64,000 nt of DNA, from positions 62,001 to 126,000 of the forward strand of contig NZ_JAJMLW010000003.1 of NCBI RefSeq assembly GCF_022669055.1. Reading direction: 5' to 3'. The translations under genes and the position numbers were made by a program. Shown piece by piece: positions 5,991-20,905 of this stretch (its first letter is position 1; every line of letters starts with the position of its first letter). The stretch is from Adlercreutzia faecimuris. GTDB lineage: Bacteria > Actinomycetota > Coriobacteriia > Coriobacteriales > Eggerthellaceae. The notes under the pieces are model-generated. The model was not told the origin of the DNA. It was given only the letters and a program-made list of their open reading frames with translations, and searched no databases.

Positions 5991-6169
5991 TTTACTCAGC
6001 CCAGGTTGCGGGAATCGCAACCTGGGCTGTGCTTCGCCTTCTCGGCTCATTCACCCTATGTCCCATTATGGAACAGCAACCCATTGCACGTGCCGATAGA
6101 ATTATGGGAAACGAGATTAGCCGAAAGCGGTGCGTCCAATCCCCGGCACTCGCAAGGATGGAGAACGAG

Positions 6170-6640
6170 ATGGAATGGATCGATATAGAGACCAAGAAGG
6201 ATGTCGATGCTTTGCTGGAGAGGGTAGAGCAGTTCCACGACTGGTACGTCGCTGGCTTCTCCTACGATCCCCTTGCGCGCGCAGAAGGCGGAGACTTGAA
6301 TCTGGGGAGGTTCAAGATCGACGTGGATTCCCTGACTGTGACCTTCAGATGGGACTGCAAGAGCAGAGGTGGAGAATGGCCGGAAGTCCAGCTTGAGTTC
6401 AGCGGTCTGCTCGTCTTCAGATTCGCGAACTTCAAGGATCCGGATCCGATCTGGCACGGGCGTATCGAGGAGACGAATCGGGGATGGGCCTTCTTCGATG
6501 ATGACGGCGTTCCGTTCACGGACGAGGAGCGCGCCCATCCCGAGAGAGTCGATTCCGGGTTCTTGGCCGTATGCGACCAGATAAGGTGGCGGCCTCTCGC
6601 AGTCGTCACCGCCGATGGCCCTGACTGGTGGAACGATTAG
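6170..6640 (+). CDS. uncharacterised acidic protein
   Basis: 156 residues from ATG 6170 (MEWIDIETKKDVDALLERV). That start is preferred over an ATG at 6158 because GGAG lies 6 bases upstream. The start MxWIDIETKxDVDxLL resembles small hypothetical proteins of bacterial elements; the middle is beta-rich (FKIDVDSLTVTFRWDCKSRG) and the end Trp-rich (WRPLAVV...DWW). No signal, membrane segment or active-site motif. Its stop overlaps the ribosome site of the serpin fusion gene at 6651, so the two are very likely translated from one message. Function unknown. Confidence 0.7.
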   Translation: MEWIDIETKKDVDALLERVEQFHDWYVAGFSYDPLARAEGGDLNLGRFKIDVDSLTVTFRWDCKSRGGEWPEVQLEFSGLLVFRFANFKDPDPIWHGRIEETNRGWAFFDDDGVPFTDEERAHPERVDSGFLAVCDQIRWRPLAVVTADGPDWWND

Positions 6641-6650
6641 GAGGATAGTC

Positions 6651-8609
6651 ATGCATAACGCCGAAGTCGAAAGGAACGAAAGCAGCGGCGGCCTGAACAG
6701 GCTCGCCGGGAGACTCTTCAAAACGATTGCAGACATACCCGGCAACGCGGTCGTTTCGCCTTCCTGCCTCTTCCAAACGTTGTCGCTGGCCGCAGCGGTC
6801 ACTGACGGAGACACGCGGGCGCAGATCGTCGATGCCCTCGGCGGCGAGGATCCGATGCGATCCGAGCTCTCCTCCGTTTCAGAAATCGGGGAGCCGGAGT
6901 ACGGGTGCAAGAACTTCCATTACTCGACCGGGGCATCGATATGGCTGGACGAGAGCCTTGAAGCCAACGACCCGGGGTTGGCGGAAAAGGGATTTCCCAT
7001 CGCATGTGACGTCGAGCGCGTCGCGATGGACAGCGAGGACGCCAAGACCCGAATGAGCGAATGGCTCTCCGGCTGCACGGGCGGGCTTTACTCCGAGGCT
7101 CCCGACATGAGCCCGGATACGCTCGCTGCCCTCATGGGGGCGATGCACCTGAGGGATTCTTGGAGCGACGGGTTCGAAGAAGACACGCCACGTATGTTCC
7201 AACCGGATTTTGGGGATGCCGTGATGGCAGACTTCATGCTGGGATGGGACAACTACGACGTCCTCGACTCCGAGGGGGCGGTCACTTTATCGAAGGATCT
7301 TACATCGGGTTGCAGAATGTACATGACGCTGCCACCGACGGGCTGCTCCCTGAGAGACTACGTTGCGAGCGGATCCGCCTGGAGGAACATCTCCTCGAAT
7401 ATCGCCGGAAAGAGCACCGAGCCCTATCGTGAGTGCAAGCTGTACCTGCCCCGCTTCGAGCTGACATCCAACGGCGTGAACCTCAAGCGTTTTCTCATGG
7501 AGGCAGGCGTGACCCGTCTGTTCGAGCCCGGGGCCGACTTCAGCCCCATCAGCCCCGACGACCTCATGGTCGATGACGTCATCCAGAACACCATGCTAAA
7601 GATCGACGAGGAGGGGCTGGAGGGCGCGTCGTACGTAATCATGTGCGTGTGCGCCGGGGCGCTTCCCGAGGATGCGCCCGAGCCTCGCGAGATCGTCCTC
7701 GACAGGCCCTTCGCCGTAGCGGTCACCTCTCCCGACGGACTCCCGCTCTTCGTGGGCACCGTCGAGCTGCCGAGCGCGGAGCACCGTCCATCCAAGAGCC
7801 TGAAGGGCGTCGTCTACGGGGCCGCCATCGGCGACGCGCTCGGGGTTCCCTACGAGTTCATGGCGCGCGGCACCTTCGAGTGCGACGGCATGGTCGGCGG
7901 AGGGGCGCACGGGATGCCCGCCGGAACGTTCTCGGACGACACGTCGCTTCTGCTCGCCACCTGCGACAGCATCAGGGAGCGCGGCGGCATCGACGTCGAG
8001 GACATGCGGGAGCGCTTCCGGGCGTGGCTCTACGAGGGCGCGTACACAACCGACGGCCGCGCCTTCGACGTGGGGAACGCCACCGCCACGGCGCTTCGGC
8101 AGGGCTTCGGCTGCGACGGCGAGAGGTCGAACGGCAACGGGTCGCTCATGCGCATCGCGCCTCTGGCCCTCACGGACGCCACCGACGACGAGATACGGGC
8201 GGTCTCATCCATTACGCACGCCCACCCCGTGTCCATGGAGGCATGCGTCTTCTTCGTGCACGTCCTGAGGGATCTTCTTGAGGACGAATGGATTGAGGAG
8301 GCGATCGAGAAGAATATCCCCAGCGACGGGCGCTTCTCGTTCCTTAAGGGCATACAGGGCGCGTCTCGCGACGACATCCGGTCGACCGGCTATGTCCTAG
8401 ACACTTTGGGTGCGGCGCTCTGGTGCGCCTGCAATACCGACAGCTATGGGGAATGCGTTCTGGAAGCAGTGAACCTCGGGGACGACTCGGACACCACCGC
8501 CTGCGTCGCCGGAGCCCTTGCGGGGGCGATGTACGGCCTCGATAGCATTCCCTCGGAGTGGATAGAGCAGCTTCGCGGCAAAGAGGTCATCGATGGCTGC
8601 CTGTTCTAG
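6651..8609 (+). CDS. serpin fused to ADP-ribosylglycohydrolase
   Basis: 652 residues with two clear domains in one frame. Residues about 15-378 are a serpin: AVVSPSCLFQTLSLAAAV and TRAQIVDALG match the helix-B region, LSGCTGGL and LYLPRFELTSNGVNLKRFL the central region, and VDDVIQNTMLKIDEEG, EGASYVIM and LDRPFAVAV with LFVGTVELP the hinge, reactive loop and C-terminal signature. Residues about 382-652 are an ADP-ribosylglycohydrolase: GAAIGDALG, the metal motif SDDT (about 428), NGNGSLMRIAPL and GDDSDTTACVAGALAGA are the family's metal- and ribose-binding motifs. No signal peptide, so it should act in the cytoplasm. The hinge has P15 Gly but bulky P9-P8, so inhibition is plausible, not certain. 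Ribosome site AGGAGGA overlaps the preceding stop. An inhibitor plus an ADP-ribose remover in one protein is unusual. Confidence 0.88.
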   Translation: MHNAEVERNESSGGLNRLAGRLFKTIADIPGNAVVSPSCLFQTLSLAAAVTDGDTRAQIVDALGGEDPMRSELSSVSEIGEPEYGCKNFHYSTGASIWLDESLEANDPGLAEKGFPIACDVERVAMDSEDAKTRMSEWLSGCTGGLYSEAPDMSPDTLAALMGAMHLRDSWSDGFEEDTPRMFQPDFGDAVMADFMLGWDNYDVLDSEGAVTLSKDLTSGCRMYMTLPPTGCSLRDYVASGSAWRNISSNIAGKSTEPYRECKLYLPRFELTSNGVNLKRFLMEAGVTRLFEPGADFSPISPDDLMVDDVIQNTMLKIDEEGLEGASYVIMCVCAGALPEDAPEPREIVLDRPFAVAVTSPDGLPLFVGTVELPSAEHRPSKSLKGVVYGAAIGDALGVPYEFMARGTFECDGMVGGGAHGMPAGTFSDDTSLLLATCDSIRERGGIDVEDMRERFRAWLYEGAYTTDGRAFDVGNATATALRQGFGCDGERSNGNGSLMRIAPLALTDATDDEIRAVSSITHAHPVSMEACVFFVHVLRDLLEDEWIEEAIEKNIPSDGRFSFLKGIQGASRDDIRSTGYVLDTLGAALWCACNTDSYGECVLEAVNLGDDSDTTACVAGALAGAMYGLDSIPSEWIEQLRGKEVIDGCLF

Positions 8610-8678: not shown

Positions 8679-8858
8679 ATGGGTTGGATAATAGCGATAC
8701 TTGTCATCGGTCTGGCGATAGCCGGATTGGTTGGAGAGACCGTCCTCCACCCGCTACTCTATGGCCTGTTCATCGCCTCGATACTGATTGTTCCTCTATG
8801 GCTCGGGTCTTCGATCGTCAACGGCATCATAGATGCGATCTTCGGAAAGAGGCGATAG
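8679..8858 (+). CDS. small membrane protein, two hydrophobic helices
   Basis: 59 residues from ATG 8679 with ribosome site GGGAGG at 8666-8671. The sequence is almost all membrane: MGWIIAILVIGLAIAGLVGE, a Pro-containing turn, then LLYGLFIASILIVPLWLGS, and a short basic tail ending FGKRR. Predicted as an inner-membrane hairpin with both ends in the cytoplasm. No family was recognised. Its operator-like dyad is shared with two other gaps of the element, which suggests common control with the polymerase operon. Could be a small toxin, a regulator of a larger membrane protein, or a phage/element factor; none can be chosen from sequence. Confidence 0.65.
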   Translation: MGWIIAILVIGLAIAGLVGETVLHPLLYGLFIASILIVPLWLGSSIVNGIIDAIFGKRR

Positions 8859-9396: not shown

Positions 9397-9438
9397 GTTC
9401 AGCAACGGACTGGTCGAATAGATCTTGGTCCACCCTGC

Positions 9439-9457
9439 GGCGGGGATATTCCCCGCC
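9439..9457 (+). promoter_or_regulatory. hairpin in the DUF3800 leader
   Basis: Perfect stem GGCGGGG / CCCCGCC with the 5-base loop ATATT, lying between the promoter at 9368 and the ribosome site at 9470. It is followed by ATTTCTATATC rather than a T-run, so it may be a weak terminator, an mRNA stabiliser, or an operator. Confidence 0.45.
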
Positions 9458-9481
9458 ATTTCTATATCTAGGAGCAATACC

Positions 9482-10162
9482 TTGTCTGACCTTGGGATAT
9501 TCATCGACGAATCTGGAGACGTGGGGTCGAACTCCGAGTTCTATCTGATCACGATGATACTCCATGACCAAGCATCGAGCATCGAACAGCAGGAACAAAA
9601 GCTTTGCTACGAGCTCGATCTTCTGGATGCGCATCCTGAAGAAGCAGTCCACTCCGGTCCCATAGTCCGCAAAGAGGACGAATGGAAGGACATCGACCTC
9701 GAAAAGCGCCGCAAGGTCTTCTTCAAGATGTTCTCGTTCGTGAGGCTCTGCCCTATCAGCTACAAGACGTTTTCTGTCAGGAAGAGGGAATGCGCCGATC
9801 GGTTCGCGCTGAGGGGGCGGCTCGCAAACGAGCTGGGCTCTTTCCTGAGGGACAACCTCGCTTTCTTCCAGGGCTTCGAGTCGGTCATCGTGTACTACGA
9901 CAACGGGCAGGCGCTCGTCACGGACCTCATCAACACCGTGCTTTGCGCCTATCTGACGAATGTGGATGTCCGCAAGATAGCTCCCTACGAATACAGGCTT
10001 AGCCAGGCGGCGGACATGGTCTGCACGCTGGAGCTCATGCGGGAGAAATCTGAAAATGGCGCGGGCATGAGCAAGTCCGAGCTCATCTTCTTCGAGAGCA
10101 GGCGAAGGCTCAGCAAAGTGTTCCTGAAGACGCTGAAGGGACTGGAGTTTCCCAAGAGCTAG
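9482..10162 (+). CDS. DUF3800 domain protein
   Basis: 226 residues from TTG 9482, where AGGAGC lies 6 bases upstream. The N-terminus LGIFIDESGDVGS is the DUF3800 signature (two acidic residues of an RNase-H-like fold), IVYYDNGQ supplies the middle strand, and RLSQAADMVCTLELM matches the C-terminal conserved helix. DUF3800 proteins are predicted metal-dependent nucleases and are frequent in prophages and integrative elements; no substrate is established. The protein is cytoplasmic, with a Lys/Arg-rich stretch after residue 60 (VRKEDEWKDIDLEKRRKVF). It has its own promoter and leader hairpin. Confidence 0.82.
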   Translation: MSDLGIFIDESGDVGSNSEFYLITMILHDQASSIEQQEQKLCYELDLLDAHPEEAVHSGPIVRKEDEWKDIDLEKRRKVFFKMFSFVRLCPISYKTFSVRKRECADRFALRGRLANELGSFLRDNLAFFQGFESVIVYYDNGQALVTDLINTVLCAYLTNVDVRKIAPYEYRLSQAADMVCTLELMREKSENGAGMSKSELIFFESRRRLSKVFLKTLKGLEFPKS

Positions 10163-11480: not shown

Positions 11481-11540
11481 CTATGATACGATGACAAATA
11501 CTCGAAGCGTATTCATGAATGTTTCTTTGGAGTGTGTATT

Positions 11541-13244
11541 GTGTTTAGAACGATAGTACGAGAGGTGCCGCAAGATTATCTGTTGACTCCTTTTCCTAGA
11601 AATTACTGTGATTTTATGGATGAAATCTCTAGTGATGATCTTTATACGGGACTTCTTGGGTACGGTTTGTTCGCCGATAAACTGCCGCCGATGTTTACTA
11701 GTAAATCCTTCGCGGCGGACTGCGTTAATAGTAAAGAGTGCAGAGTTGGTCACGAGAAGAGCGATTGGGTTGTTTTTTCTTACATTAGAAATATCGGAAC
11801 AAAACGCGTTTTTGGCATCCCGTCTCCCTTTGCTTATGAGAGTCTAGTGCGTCATTTGGTCGAACACTGGAAAGAAATCAAAGAAATCTTTCGTAACAAC
11901 ACACAAGGCCATCCCTATCGAATTAGCCGCATTCACATTCGAAAGCGCAAAGACTCGGACTCGCTTTTTAGTATGAATTATCGTTGTTGGCAAATTGAAG
12001 AAAACCCGTTGCCTGCCTTGTTGATAGGAAATCGGATGGCCGTCGATTGTGATATATCGAGGTGCTTCCCCAGTATTTATACGCATGCTCTAGATTGGGC
12101 TATTTTAGGAAAGGAAAAGGCAAAGAGAAATACGAATGGTACAGAGTGTAGATGGTCGCATGAGCTAGACCAGCGCACGATGAACACAACAAATGGCGAG
12201 ACTCATGGTTTGCTCATTGGCCCTCATACCTCAAATCTTCTTGCCGAATTAATCTTAACGCGTATTGACGCAGCATTATTCGAAAAGGGATATCGATTTT
12301 TGCGACATATCGACGACTATCGCTGTTACGTAGACAGTAAGGAGCGAGCGAGGTCGTTCATCCTGGATCTTGAGACTGAGCTCGATCTGTATGGGCTCTC
12401 CGTAAATCAGAAAAAAACGAGGGTTTGGGATCAGCCGAGTGCTTCTCTCGATGATTGGGTGAGAATACTGAAAAATGCTTTTCCGCACAAACCCCTCCTT
12501 GATAAGGGTGATGTGGAGAGGTTTCTAGACACCGCCATAGTGGCTGCAAAAGAGTCTGGAAGTGGGTCTGCGCTGGCTTATGCTTTTGGGATGCTATCAA
12601 AAAGTCGCATGAACCACTGGGCCCGAAAATACTACGGCGATATTGCCCTCCACCTCGCTTACACTCAGCCGTATCTCCTCCCTTTCGTTGAAGAGCGAGT
12701 TATCATGGCGGCAAAGATACCAAGCAAACGCATTGAAATTTTTTCGAATTTACTGCTAGATAAGTCCATTGAGGAGAGGGATTACCTTTCGGCATCTTAT
12801 GCAATCTATTATGCAATGCGATATGGTTTTGCGCTTGCTCTTTTGGAGAGTGCGGAGGCGGCCTCTGTTTTAGAGGAGACACGAGATTGCGTTCTGTGTA
12901 CCTGTGCGTTGGTGTATTCAAGAAGACGGCAGAACAAAGCTTTGCGCAACAAGCTTATTAGCTATGCAAAGGAATTGGCGAAAACCGAAGGAGACTTTCA
13001 GCGCAATTGGTTGTTTGTTTATGAGGCGTTGCCGATCGATCAGATACCCAAAGAGTATCTGTCTGGCGCGTGGCGCGCAATCAAACGCAAGGGGATCAGC
13101 TTTATCGACACGATTCGTATTGAAGAGCCGCCGAGAAATAACGAGTCGATAGAAGATGTCATTGATGCTTTGGCGGAGCAGTTGTCCGACGACGGTGAGG
13201 TGGGAGCTGATAGAGCAAGCGACCGAAGCACTAACGAGCTGTGA
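11541..13244 (+). CDS. defence-type reverse transcriptase (DRT/UG group)
   Basis: 567 residues from GTG 11541, chosen because GGAG lies 8 bases upstream (11529-11532); a GTG at 11532 overlaps that site. RT motifs are present in order: VDCDISRCFPSIYTHALDW (motif A, about 168-186), GLLIGPHTSNLLAELIL (motif B, about 223-239), RFLRHIDDYRCY (motif C, the catalytic Asp pair, about 252-263) and LSVNQKKT (motif D). The N-terminus has YGLFADKLPPMFTS, a pattern of the unknown-group RTs. After residue 330 comes an alpha-helical repeat-like region of about 230 residues. There is no maturase, HNH, retron msr/msd or integrase part. GC is far below the neighbours, showing transfer. Such RTs give phage resistance, often by abortive response. 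The exact DRT class cannot be named from sight. Confidence 0.85.
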   Translation: MFRTIVREVPQDYLLTPFPRNYCDFMDEISSDDLYTGLLGYGLFADKLPPMFTSKSFAADCVNSKECRVGHEKSDWVVFSYIRNIGTKRVFGIPSPFAYESLVRHLVEHWKEIKEIFRNNTQGHPYRISRIHIRKRKDSDSLFSMNYRCWQIEENPLPALLIGNRMAVDCDISRCFPSIYTHALDWAILGKEKAKRNTNGTECRWSHELDQRTMNTTNGETHGLLIGPHTSNLLAELILTRIDAALFEKGYRFLRHIDDYRCYVDSKERARSFILDLETELDLYGLSVNQKKTRVWDQPSASLDDWVRILKNAFPHKPLLDKGDVERFLDTAIVAAKESGSGSALAYAFGMLSKSRMNHWARKYYGDIALHLAYTQPYLLPFVEERVIMAAKIPSKRIEIFSNLLLDKSIEERDYLSASYAIYYAMRYGFALALLESAEAASVLEETRDCVLCTCALVYSRRRQNKALRNKLISYAKELAKTEGDFQRNWLFVYEALPIDQIPKEYLSGAWRAIKRKGISFIDTIRIEEPPRNNESIEDVIDALAEQLSDDGEVGADRASDRSTNEL

Positions 13245-13312
13245 GAGCTCGCTTAGGAATTGTAGAAATTGTCGTAAGAGCGCAGGTGCAGCGAGGCTTC
13301 CTTTGATTGAGG

Positions 13313-13657
13313 GATTCCCTACCCCCACGTCTGGTCGCTTGTGCGCTTGTACCTTGAGTAGGGGAAGTCCTCGAACCTCAGATCGGCCGCCCTGCCGGCC
13401 ATGTCGGCTCGGATGGCGCGGCCGATGGCCTCGCCGAGGGCCACGGGGACGGCGTTGCCGATCTGGCGGTAGGCGTCCATGACGTCGCCGCAGATGCGCC
13501 AGTCGTCGGGGAAGCCCTGGACGCGCCGGTACTCCTCGACGGCCGGCGGGCGGTCCTCCGTGGGATGGCACAGGTCGGTCGCGGGCATGGTCGGCGACGT
13601 GACGAGCATGGGGCACGGCCGGTCGAAGCCGATGCGCCGGTAGAAGCCTGTCTTGCC
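13313..13657 (-). pseudogene. 3' fragment of the C5 methyltransferase gene (copy A)
   Basis: These 345 bases align without gaps to 16211-16555 with about 17 mismatches counted by eye, most of them in the part encoding the last 40 residues. They encode the last roughly 113 residues of the methyltransferase (from the FDRPCPTLVTSPTMP region through IGNAVPVALGEAIGRAI to the stop) but have no start or catalytic Cys. The reading frame is still open. The fragment sits directly after the reverse transcriptase gene and ends abruptly in AAGAAATG at 13658. Together with the full gene it bounds a 2.5-kb block with the GIY-YIG gene and CRISPR array 1. Confidence 0.85.
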
Positions 13658-15527: not shown

Positions 15528-15714
15528 GTGCTGGTGGGTGGGCTTTTCGCGTGGATTGCGCGTTGGTGCGAGTTGGGGGCAAGCATGGATCCGCGGGGAG
15601 GTTCGCACTGTGATCGCGCCGCTTTTTCTGCGCCTTGGGGCGTCTGGCGCGATGCTTGGGTGATTTAGCGTCATGCGATGGTATGCTTGGAGGAGGAAAT
15701 CGCAAGATATTGCG

Positions 15715-16206
15715 GTCGCTGCCCCTCGCGGGGCGGCGTGGGTTGAAACCGTGTAGCTAAGCATCGAGCACCGCCTTGGCGATGTCGCTGCCCCTCGCGG
15801 GGCGGCGTGGGTTGAAACTTCTATGAGGAAGGCGAAGGTGCATGGCCCAGCATTGTCGCTGCCCCTCGCGGGGCGGCGTGGGTTGAAACTGGGCGATATC
15901 GCCATCATGGCCGATGAATGGCCGTCGCTGCCCCTCGCGGGGCGGCGTGGGTTGAAACCGGACTTCCTCTTGGAGGACGATCCCGAGTGCTTGTCGCTGC
16001 CCCTCGCGGGGCGGCGTGGGTTGAAACAACTCCAACCACCGTCACGCCGAAGTAGTACGTGTCGCTGCCCCTCGCGGGACAGCGTGGGTTGAAACAACGG
16101 CCCCTCCGTCATCGGCATCGGCGAGGCTGGGTCGCTGTCCCTCACGGGGCAACGTGGGCTGAAACTTGAGCAGCAGGTTCACCCCCGGCTCAAGGCTGGT
16201 CGCTGC
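15715..16206 (+). CRISPR. CRISPR array 1, 35-bp repeats
   Basis: Seven 35-bp repeats at 15715, 15784, 15855, 15924, 15993, 16061 and 16131, separated by spacers of 33-36 bases. The repeat begins GTCGCTGCCCCTCGCGGGGC and ends GTGGGTTGAAAC, the I-C-like form with an internal palindrome. The first five are identical; the sixth has 2 and the seventh about 5 changes, and an eighth is cut after GTCGCTGC at 16199 where the methyltransferase gene begins. Decay toward the right puts the leader on the left (15528-15714, empty of genes), ending ATATTGCG directly before repeat 1. Transcription should run left to right. No cas gene is found in the window. Confidence 0.96.
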
Positions 16207-16216
16207 GGCGGATTCC

Positions 16217-17614
16217 CTACCCCCACGTCTGATCGCTCGTGCGCTTGTACCTTGAGTAGGGGAATCCCTCGAACCGGGGATCGGCCACCCTACCAGCCAT
16301 GTCGGCGCGGATGGCGCGTCCGATGGCCTCGCCGAGGGCAACGGGGACGGCGTTGCCGATCTGGCGGTAGGCGTCCATGACGTCGCCGCAGATGCGCCAG
16401 TCGTCGGGGAAGCCCTGGACGCGCCGGTACTCCTCGACGGCCAGCGGGCGGTCCTCCGTGGGATGGCACAGGTCGGTCGCGGGCATGGTCGGCGACGTGA
16501 CGAGCGTGGGGCACGGCCGGTCGAAGCTGATGCGCCGGTAGAAGCCGGTCTTGCCGCCGGAGAGCGCGTAGGCCTTGCCCATCGCCTCGCGCTGCATGTC
16601 GTCGGGCAGGTTCTTCCAGTACTCGCCTCCCTTGAGCATACGGAAGTAACGCAGGCGCTTCTCGGGGAAGTCGGTGTGGCGCAGGGTGGCGGGGTCGAGG
16701 CCCTCGACGGCCTCGCGGAAGGTGCGCCACGGCGGCAGGCCGCACTCGCCGGCCGGGGCGTGGGTGGGCTCGAGGTAGGGCACGCGCCCGCCGCCGCGCT
16801 TCGCGATGAGCACGACGCGCTCGCGGATCTGCGGGGCGCCGAAGTTGGCGGCGTTGTAGAGGTTGAAGCTGGCCTCGTAGCCGGCTTCCTCCAGGTGGCG
16901 CAGGATGAGGCGGAAGGCGCCGCCGCGCTGGGGCTGGCCGCCCTCTACCAGGGGAAACGGCGTCGAGAGCAGGCCGCGCACGTTCTCGATGACGAGGTAG
17001 GCCGGCTGGATGTCGGCGGCGAGGGCCAGGTACTTGAGGAAGACGTTGCCGCGCTCGTCGTCGAAGGCGCGCTGGGCGCCGGCGGTGCTGAACGCCTGGC
17101 ACGGCGGGCCGCCGAACATGACGTCGACGGTGCCGGGCTCAAGGCCGGCCATCTCCAGCACCTGGGCGGCGTCGTAGCGGTTGATGTCGCCGATGAGGGC
17201 GGCGTCGGGGCGCATGGCCTGGATGGTCATGCGGCACTTGCGGTCGTTCTCGCAGTAGAGTGCCGGGTAGATGCCGGCGCGCTCCATCCCCAGGTCAAGC
17301 CCGAGGGCGCCCGAGAAGAAGCTGAGCGCGTTGATGGCGGGGGAGCCGCCGGCGGGCGTCGGGATGCCGACGCCTGCGCGGCGCGGATGGTCGGGTGGCT
17401 CGGGCACGAGGTTGTTCTCGACCAGGTAGTCGTCCAGCTTGCCGGCGAAGATGACCCAGCGGCTGCCCACCTTCTCGGCCGGCAGCTGGCCGGTGCGAAT
17501 GAGGCGAGAGACGGTCTGCTTGGTGACGCCGAGGATGCGCGCGGCATCGTCGGCGGAGAGGAGGTCGTCGCGGGTCTCAGCGGTATTGGCGGCGGGGATG
17601 TTCGGCTGCTGCAT
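16217..17614 (-). CDS. DNA (cytosine-5) methyltransferase with N-terminal HTH domain
   Basis: 465 residues. Residues about 17-66 are an excisionase-type HTH (LLSADDAARILGVTKQTVSR, IRTGQLPAEKVGSRW). The rest is a C5 methyltransferase: motif I FFSGALGLDLGMERAG, motif IV GGPPCQAFS with the catalytic Cys, motif VI ENVRGLL, motif VIII QIRERVVLIAK and motif X GNAVPVALGEAIG, with a target-recognition region between VIII and X. It protects host DNA from the endonuclease at 18126-18926. The HTH fusion suggests the enzyme also represses or balances its own operon, as N-terminal HTH domains do in some type II methyltransferases. Its 3' end abuts CRISPR array 1 and is duplicated at 13313-13657. Recognition sequence cannot be read off. 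Confidence 0.93.
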   Translation of the reverse strand: MQQPNIPAANTAETRDDLLSADDAARILGVTKQTVSRLIRTGQLPAEKVGSRWVIFAGKLDDYLVENNLVPEPPDHPRRAGVGIPTPAGGSPAINALSFFSGALGLDLGMERAGIYPALYCENDRKCRMTIQAMRPDAALIGDINRYDAAQVLEMAGLEPGTVDVMFGGPPCQAFSTAGAQRAFDDERGNVFLKYLALAADIQPAYLVIENVRGLLSTPFPLVEGGQPQRGGAFRLILRHLEEAGYEASFNLYNAANFGAPQIRERVVLIAKRGGGRVPYLEPTHAPAGECGLPPWRTFREAVEGLDPATLRHTDFPEKRLRYFRMLKGGEYWKNLPDDMQREAMGKAYALSGGKTGFYRRISFDRPCPTLVTSPTMPATDLCHPTEDRPLAVEEYRRVQGFPDDWRICGDVMDAYRQIGNAVPVALGEAIGRAIRADMAGRVADPRFEGFPYSRYKRTSDQTWG

Positions 17615-18938: not shown

Positions 18939-19108
18939 CGCTAGGCGCGCATGGGCGGTGTGGATTGAAACGCGTCCCAGCAGGCGTGGCGGGCGTTCCC
19001 AGGCGCAGGTCGCCGCTCGCAAGGGTGGTGTGGATTGAAGCAGGTGCGTGTCTGAGTCAGGCGCGAAGCGTATGGACGGCGCTGCTCATGAGGGCGGGGC
19101 GGATGAAG
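18939..19108 (+). CRISPR. decayed CRISPR array (relic of the array 2 type)
   Basis: Two diverged 33-bp repeats (18939-18971 and 19009-19041) and a third, very degenerate one (about 19077-19108), all ending in forms of GTGTGGATTGAAAC. The spacer after the second (starting AGGTGCGTGTCTGAG) is an altered copy of the last spacer of array 2 (AGGTGTGTGGCTGGG). It is therefore the old trailer end of an array related to array 2, left behind after duplication. It has no leader and no perfect repeat, so it is probably inactive. Confidence 0.75.
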
Positions 19109-19480
19109 TTGGCTCGTCGGCTTACAGATTGCCTCCGTGGGCGTCGACGGAGAGCGAGCATCGTCGCGTAGAGGGCGCTCTCGGCGGGACGATGGGAATG
19201 CTGGGTGTCTCTCTCACCAAATCTGTTGGACAAAAAACGCCGATATCGCGGAACTTATGCGTGGATCTTCCGACTCACTCTTACTTCTTTGACGCGTTTT
19301 CCCTGTTCAAGGCCTTGCGGGTAAAAACCCTTTTAGCTTTTTTCCTCCGAGGGACGGTGATATCTCGCTTTTTTGTCCATCCAGATGCGAGATCGCGGGT
19401 TTTTGTCCATCTAAGGGAGTGAGGGGCTGAGATTTGGTTAGAGGAGGTTGAGGGACAACAGGCGATGCCCCTGTTGCCCC
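19009..19480 (+). repeat. CRISPR-trailer direct repeat, copy 1
   Basis: About 470 bases that match 20432-20905 along their length, diverged but alignable. The unit contains a repeat, one spacer, a degenerate terminal repeat, then GC-rich and T-rich sequence with CGGCGGGACGATGGG and TTTTTGTCCATCCAGATGCG, ending near GGACAACAGGC. Within it, GGACAAAAAACGCCGATATC (19228) and its imperfect inverse (19359-19378) bound a 151-base palindromic section. No gene is supported inside. Confidence 0.75.
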
Positions 19481-19896
19481 GCTCAGGGCCTCGCTGTCTA
19501 GGCATGTCGCAGAGAGGCTGCGGCCGAGGAGCGCTGGCTCCTTGTGGCAGCGGAACCCAAGAAGGCGCCCCGGTACTTGGCGACCTCCATCCCAGAGTCT
19601 CGTTTTAAAGTATCCAGTGGGCGTGCCTGCGAGCCTTTGGCTTAGCGATGCGAGCATTCGAGCGGTGTGATTTGGCGGCGTTTCTTACTGTGTGGGTGTG
19701 TTTGGGGCGGGTAGTCAGTCGAATGCGCCGCCCGGAGGGGGCAGGCGGTGCGAAGCGGGGGCCGACAAGGAAACGCCGGCAGGTTCGCACCGCCTTTTAT
19801 GGGTTTTGGGGCGCATACGGGGCTTTCGTCGTTGCGGCAGGTGGCTTTGATATCGAGCCGTGGCGCACACATCTCAGTGGCGTACAATATATTGCG
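19481..19896. other. gene-free leader region of CRISPR array 2
   Basis: About 415 bases without a supportable gene between the first trailer copy and repeat 1 of array 2. It includes the hairpin at 19744-19794 and ends in ATATATTGCG immediately before the first repeat; the last eight bases are the same as those before array 1, so the array-proximal part is the leader. The remainder shows no clear motif. Confidence 0.55.
19744..19794 (+). terminator. hairpin with T-tract in the array 2 leader region
   Basis: Arms GGCGGTGCGAA (19744-19754) and GTTCGCACCGCC pair over 11 bp around a 29-base loop that can fold again (GCCG/CGGC), followed by TTTT. It can stop transcription coming from the left before the array, or be a small structured RNA. 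Confidence 0.45.
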
Positions 19897-20533
19897 GTCA
19901 CCGCTCGCAAGAGCGGTGCGGATTGAAACTGGACGGGACTTTGGGACGGCGTCATGGCGGTCGTCACCGCTCGCAAGAGCGGTGCGGATTGAAACTGGTC
20001 GCATAACGCGGTTGACAATCTTGCTTCTAGTCGCCGCTCGCAAGAGCGGTGTGGATTGAAACTCAATCTCAGCTCGTAAAGACCGGCAGGTTCTTCGTCA
20101 CCGCTCGCAAGAGCGGTGTGGATTGAAACGCTGTAGCTACTTTAGCAAAAACATGGAAAATGTGTCACCGCTCGCAAGAGCGGTGTGGATTGGAACTTCG
20201 CGGGCGTCTCCGGCATGAGCAGCAGGGACGTCACCGCTCGCAAGAGCGGCGTGGATTGAAACGAGCTCGTGGACGGTGAGATGGTGCCCCGCTCCTGTCG
20301 TCGCTCGCAAGAGCGGCGTGGATTGAAACAGCTTGGCGGTGATGGTGGCATACTGGATGGACGTCGTCGCTCGCAAGAGCGGCGTGGATTGAAATGGCGA
20401 CTTCGGCCAGATACTCAACTCCAGCGTTGATGTCGTCGCTCGCAAGAGCGGTGTGGATTGAAACAGGTGTGTGGCTGGGTCGGGCGCGAAGCGTATGGGC
20501 GGCGCTGCTTGTGAGGGTGGGGCGGATTGAAGC
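19897..20533 (+). CRISPR. CRISPR array 2, 33-bp repeats
   Basis: Nine 33-bp repeats at 19897, 19963, 20030, 20097, 20164, 20230, 20297, 20363 and 20432, with spacers of 33-36 bases, and a degenerate tenth at 20501-20533. The repeat begins GTCACCGCTCGCAAGAGCGG and ends TGTGGATTGAAAC, again I-C-like. Small variants occur (GTCACC, GTCGCC, GTCGTC; GGTG or GGCG; TGGAAC at repeat 5; GAAAT at repeat 8), with GTCGTC forms gathered on the right. The leader is on the left and ends ATATTGCG as for array 1. Repeat length and sequence differ from array 1. No cas genes are present. Confidence 0.96.
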
Positions 20534-20905
20534 TAGTCCGTTGGGCTGCGGGTTGGCTCTGTGGGCGTCGGCGGAGTGGGGCGCCGTCTCGTAGAGGATG
20601 CTCTCGGCGGGACGATGGGGGGGGTGTTGGGCGCTGTCCTCGGTAGGTTCGCTGGACAAAAATCGGCGATATCGCGGAACTTGTGCGCGAATCTGTTAGT
20701 TCGTTCCCGCCCCTTTGGCGCGTTTCCCCTGGTCATGGCGTTGTGGGCAAAAACTCTGCTCGCTTTTTTCCTCCTAGGGACGGTGATATTTCGCTTTTTT
20801 GTCCATCCAGATGCGAGATCGCGGGTTTTTGTCCATCTGAGGGGGGTGTGGGTTAGCTGGAGGGGAGTCTAAGGACAACAGGCTACGTCCCCGTTGCCCC
20901 GTCCC
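20432..20905 (+). repeat. CRISPR-trailer direct repeat, copy 2
   Basis: The array-2 end and downstream flank that also appear at 19009-19480. It begins with the last good repeat and the shared spacer, passes the degenerate repeat, and runs through GATATTTCGCTTTTTTGTCC (20785-20804) to about GGACAACAGGC. The imperfect inverted ends GGACAAAAATCGGCGATATC (20654-20673) and 20785-20804 again bound about 150 bases. Confidence 0.75.

Follow-up and report, generated by a model that had tools for sequence, protein, structure and literature searches.

A serpin fused to an ADP-ribosylglycohydrolase beside defence genes in Adlercreutzia faecimuris

Adlercreutzia faecimuris, an actinobacterium from a family associated with the gut, encodes a protein of 652 residues in which a serpin is joined to an ADP-ribosylglycohydrolase (DraG/ARG) domain. 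The gene is a single open frame at positions 6651-8609 (plus strand) of the window, the stretch of 64,000 nucleotides that was analysed. Our preferred reading, to which we give a probability of roughly 0.4, is that the fusion is a two-module cytoplasmic protection factor on an integrative conjugative element, with a DraG domain that undoes ADP-ribosylation and a serpin that traps a protease. The DraG/ARG domain would strip ADP-ribose from macromolecules to which a foreign ADP-ribosyltransferase, such as a phage enzyme or a competitor toxin, has attached it, a target in which we have moderate confidence. Serpins are one-shot suicide traps for proteases, and this one, whose closest relatives in its Coriobacteriia clade have no signal peptide, would trap a serine or cysteine protease that prefers small residues and is either cytoplasmic or injected. 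Our confidence that it inhibits a protease is weak to moderate, and our confidence that the two modules cooperate is weak. The two-module reading draws on the confirmation of both domains with intact catalytic motifs, on the low dN/dS of the DraG part, on a clade context that matches the description of orphan ARG systems (PMC9503650), and on the Imm35-ARG precedent, the published role of ARG in immunity and the neighbouring conjugation and defence genes. It is weakened by the occurrence in one genome only, by departures from the inhibitory hinge at P14 and P9, and by the lack of a recognisable protease target or ADP-ribosyltransferase nearby.

The fusion gene is preceded by an ideal Shine-Dalgarno sequence (AGGAGG, 6639-6644, plus strand), which lies 6 nt 5' of the ATG at 6651 and makes this start preferable to the mechanical start at 6615; the latter was ruled out by this position and 6651 was taken. 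The Shine-Dalgarno sequence overlaps the stop codon of the preceding gene (6158-6640, plus strand), so the two genes are probably co-translated. This upstream gene encodes 160 residues without a family match and has homologues in three other Eggerthellaceae-level relatives. As the earlier note had proposed, the product is one protein and probably a cytoplasmic one; it is read in a single frame, and no signal peptide was found on it. The serpin part stops at the natural serpin C-terminus (FVGTVELP), and about 13 residues (between Pfam boundaries 372 and 386) join it to the ARG domain. This linker (residues 373-385, 7767-7805, plus strand) has no internal start codon, and in its second half it is similar to the N-terminal end of DraG proteins from a neighbouring genus (SAEHRPSKSLKG in the fusion, PAHEIRDSKALRA in L005). 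The GC3 is 0.79 in the serpin part and 0.86 in the DraG part, and both look like coding sequence. Occurrence in a single genome is what one would expect if an assembly or sequencing error had merged separate genes. However, such an error is very improbable, because there is no ATG, GTG or TTG between 7755 and the DraG core that could serve as a separate DraG start, no homopolymer of at least 6 anywhere in the gene and no frame change at the junction, because the serpin end is natural and the linker DraG-like, and because the junction sits within a 520-kb contig of a genome assembled in 6 contigs. As far as the sequence can tell, the join was confirmed as genuine and the gene as intact, free of the frameshift that had been raised as a possible cause.

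The DraG/ARG domain covers residues 386-652 (7806-8606, plus strand). Its Pfam match (PF03747, ADP_ribosyl_GH) spans residues 386-636 with an E value of 3.8e-62, far above the curated cut-off, and a PDB sequence search returned the ADP-ribosyl hydrolase 6dre as the closest solved relative (E 1e-48), as well as DraG itself (2woc, E 1e-30). The metal-binding motif SDDT (residues 428-431, 7932-7943, plus strand) aligns with TDDTS of 6dre, and the metal-binding motif GDDSDT (residues 610-615, 8478-8495, plus strand) aligns with 6dre and 8za7; further ARG motifs are GDALG (394-398), FDVGN (472-476), NGNGS (from 494) and THAHP (522-526). With a whole-domain match, the two metal motifs and a TH motif, the domain belongs to PF03747. 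It is very likely to be catalytically active as a two-metal hydrolase, and our confidence in this is strong. It scored 189.8 bits against the Tri1 equivalog NF041672, for which the curated cut-off is 490, and is related to Tri1 but not an equivalog. Compared with the sister proteins of the neighbouring genus, the dN/dS is 0.15-0.18, which shows that the DraG half is under purifying selection; this ratio covers the DraG part only, as the serpin and the fusion are known from one genome. The genome holds a single ARG and no macro match, and a limited check for ADP-ribosyltransferases found no match to DarT or ADPrib_exo_Tox in it. No cognate toxin gene was recognised beside the fusion, whose close neighbours have no family match or only DUF3800. 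With no partner transferase found, the DraG of the fusion looks like an "orphan" ARG.

The N-terminal part had been taken for a serpin in the earlier note, and Pfam, the PDB search and structure prediction agree on this. Its domain (residues 16-372, 6696-7766, plus strand) matches PF00079 over profile positions 4-368 of 370 (E 1.5e-38, far above the curated cut-off), and conserpin 6ee5 was found in the PDB sequence search (E 3e-22). An AlphaFold2 model of the serpin domain alone, without DraG and with 30 aligned serpins as input, reached a mean pLDDT of 82.6, and its top Foldseek matches are solved serpins (best E 4.5e-28, TM 0.79). The whole-domain profile match and the serpin fold place it in PF00079. 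The motifs SPSCLF (36-41), EEG (320-322) and DRPF (351-354) are present and the serpin frame is unbroken over 376 codons. Both halves of the protein are complete, as had been claimed. The reactive centre loop (residues 320-350, 7608-7700, plus strand), as delimited by alignments, contains the hinge EEGLEGASY and a presumed scissile region CAG-ALPE. Structure prediction had been suggested for this loop and gave a confident serpin fold, but residues 335-347 have a pLDDT below 50 and are poorly defined. By the 17-residue rule, P1 would be Gly336. Ala-Gly at P2-P1 and Pro at P3' are common to several related serpins, and the loop may hint at a protease that accepts small residues. The closest serpins have no recognisable signal peptide, their N-termini being judged by eye.

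Not all serpins are inhibitors, as HSP47-type and hormone-binding serpins are non-inhibitory, and the main rival to the two-module reading is that catalysis or reactivity is confined to the DraG domain. The serpin would then be a non-inhibitory module for client binding, stability or localisation, in place of the chaperones that bind peptides in orphan ARG systems. In inhibitory serpins, P17-P9 reads ExGTEAAAA (PMC8233489); the hinge of the fusion agrees with this at P17-P15, P13 and P11 and differs at P14 (Leu) and P9 (Tyr), and because of these departures inhibition may be lost. However, the E-E-G and the small residues at P12-P10 are retained. Moreover, a Tyr at P9 and a non-Thr residue at P14 are common to many Coriobacteriia serpins, and may therefore be tolerated, and the loop is partly conserved among related serpins, which suggests a shared target. 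A non-inhibitory front end would also fit with the frequent coupling of ARG systems to vWA or TY chaperones, which are proposed to hold ADP-ribosylated proteins (PMC9503650), and with the swapping, in the DraG clade of the fusion, of front ends such as zinc ribbon, NADAR-Sel1 and Nudix, which are not protease inhibitors. On balance we regard a non-inhibitory serpin as possible, if unlikely.

The Coriobacteriia DraG clade appears to swap its front-end domains, and the serpin is a new partner for it. A zinc ribbon is fused to DraG in three clade members (L008, L009 and L103) and a small unassigned domain in three (L101, L018 and L014). Genes for vWA proteins adjoin DraG in L101 and lie a few kb away in L108 and L114, and L114 also has a macro-domain gene near DraG. 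Within this clade, a Nudix-ADP-ribosylglycohydrolase fusion was also observed in L110 (5572-6939), and L109 (6758-9808) encodes a NADAR-Sel1-ADP-ribosylglycohydrolase fusion of 1016 residues, a single protein that holds two distinct domains for removing ADP-ribose. Some DraG relatives have a "MITFEQ" domain as front end, which was considered as a possible Imm35; this was not supported, and Imm35 (PF15567) had no match in the bacterial family searched.

The serpin-DraG fusion is apparently unique, although absence from searches is no proof. A survey for the same architecture, which had been suggested earlier, turned up no match spanning both domains besides the fusion itself among 138 Eggerthellaceae-level relatives. 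No second fusion was found by a serpin search of 398 genomes of the class, a DraG search of 397 genomes of the order, a full-length search of 396 genomes of the phylum or a narrow pattern scan of one genome each for 84,980 species, nor in the viral contigs, phages and plasmids searched. These samples overlap, and the loose first look at the family misses some serpins, such as that of G058, which was missed there and found in the class search. This G058 serpin has a long open frame but no DraG beside it and was rejected as a fusion. A match in L004 that reaches into the serpin tail was spurious, as its upstream frame is not a serpin, and a DraG-LeuA fusion in L112, left out of the count, probably stems from faulty assembly of a metagenome.

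In the DraG tree, the fusion protein (P0001) is sister to four proteins of a neighbouring genus without a serpin (support 100/99). The nearest relatives, from a neighbouring genus and without a serpin, are 78-81% identical, and those at 54-81% in the 138 Eggerthellaceae-level genomes are standalone or have other front ends. In the serpin tree, P0001 groups with standalone serpins of Slackia and relatives (support 100/97), of which the nearest, in Slackia, are about 34% identical; the other two serpins that its genome encodes fall elsewhere. As the sister DraG proteins lack a serpin and the closest serpins are standalone, the fusion arose on the P0001 branch and is recent. Such an event could be a neutral accident, in which loss of a stop codon fused two genes whose products still work separately or whose serpin is decaying. 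The restriction to a single genome, with no other fusion in the genome searches, and a join that directly follows the natural end of the serpin and precedes the DraG core are compatible with this. The serpin frame, however, has stayed intact with a confidently predicted fold, whereas the related standalone serpin L065 is already broken into two frames, and the dN/dS of the DraG part has been kept low. We therefore consider a neutral accident distinctly unlikely. Plasmids of Bifidobacterium longum (NZ_CP143940.1 and three others) carry a DraG 52% identical to that of the fusion, which suggests mobile spread of the DraG clade.

After guaA, upstream of the window, there are two integrases, a relaxase, a VirD4-like coupling protein and a VirB4-like protein, along with a TrbL-like protein and a pilin-like surface protein; a type III restriction-modification cluster there includes a WYL regulator. 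The 3' side of the fusion carries DRT4, two CRISPR-like arrays and a cytosine methylase accompanied by an EcoO109I-like nuclease. Their membership of the element is uncertain because its right end is not fixed; a search for element ends from the 3' end of guaA found no convincing repeat. Judging by these genes, the fusion sits next to defence genes on an integrative conjugative element, which agrees with the integrative element of the earlier note. The adjoining conjugation module would suit a counter-defence factor that shields the conjugative element from host immunity, and bacterial defences employing proteases or ADP-ribosylation are known. However, the recognisable neighbouring cargo is defensive and not anti-defensive, and orphan ARG systems have been proposed to undo viral ADP-ribosylation and to protect the host (PMC9503650), and we see little chance that counter-defence is the role. 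The earlier note had proposed counter-defence or immunity; with ARG being an immunity enzyme, immunity fits better and counter-defence less.

Several other features were observed around the fusion gene. A possible membrane protein of 59 residues (8679-8858), preceded by GGAGG, directly follows it. A DUF3800 gene lies 3' of both the fusion gene (window 9425-10162, plus strand) and the closest standalone serpin in Slackia, which it adjoins (L063, 6737-7423; 28% identity), and L129 has DUF3800 in alternation with homologues of the 160-residue gene that precedes the fusion. The DRT4 antiviral reverse transcriptase (11532-13244, PADLOC E 2e-166) has a GC content below that of its surroundings. A 346-bp stretch of the 3' part of the cytosine methylase is duplicated at 95% identity (13312-13657 and 16210-16555), and the copies flank a CRISPR-like array and a Schlafen-group-3 helicase that weakly matches GIY-YIG; the arrangement resembles a small unit of insertion or recombination. 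The two CRISPR-like arrays are different and about 3 kb apart (15709-16167 with 7 copies at a spacing of about 69, and 18939-20539 with 12 copies at about 67).

In its boldest form, which is doubtful, the two-module reading would make the fusion a mobile immunity protein that unites two unrelated weapons, one erasing ADP-ribose and the other trapping proteases by a suicide mechanism. If true, this would be the first demonstration of a serpin working as an immunity or anti-phage module in the bacterial cell. For prokaryotic serpins without a signal peptide, the fusion offers a directly testable role, namely protection against injected proteases.

Among known proteins, the serpins of Slackia isoflavoniconvertens without a signal peptide (L063/L116) fall in the same supported clade (100/97) and have a similar reactive loop and a nearby DUF3800 gene, but they are standalone and 34% identical to the serpin of the fusion. 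As in the orphan ARG systems, no coupled transferase was found for the fusion, and Nudix, NADAR, macro and vWA associations are found in the DraG clade of the fusion; however, the paper describing these systems mentions no serpin (PMC9503650), and no Nudix or WYL regulator and no NADAR, vWA or macro gene was found beside the fusion. ARG is an established immunity and deconjugation enzyme (PMC3482391, PMC9503650, PMC11699363), and its function as an enzymatic immunity protein has been published (PMC3482391, PMC11699363). The Imm-ARG and ADP-ribosylarginine hydrolase immunity enzymes (6dre; BAH of the Bxa system) share their catalytic domain with the fusion, and they protect the cell by enzymatically undoing ADP-ribosylation (PMC3482391, PMC11699363). 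In contrast, the present ARG is fused to a serpin, has no recognisable toxin partner and scores below the Tri1-type equivalog cut-off. No paper naming both "serpin" and "ADP-ribosylglycohydrolase" was found in the literature searched, and to this extent the earlier statement that no such fusion has been described stands. However, proteins that join Imm35, which is suspected of inhibiting peptidases, to ADP-ribosyl glycohydrolase have been reported (PMC3482391), so that a suspected peptidase inhibitor and an ARG had already been found in one protein, whereas in the present fusion the Pfam family and the fold identify the front end as a serpin. The serpin-ARG protein is a further variant beside the published Imm35-ARG fusions and is less isolated than had been claimed.
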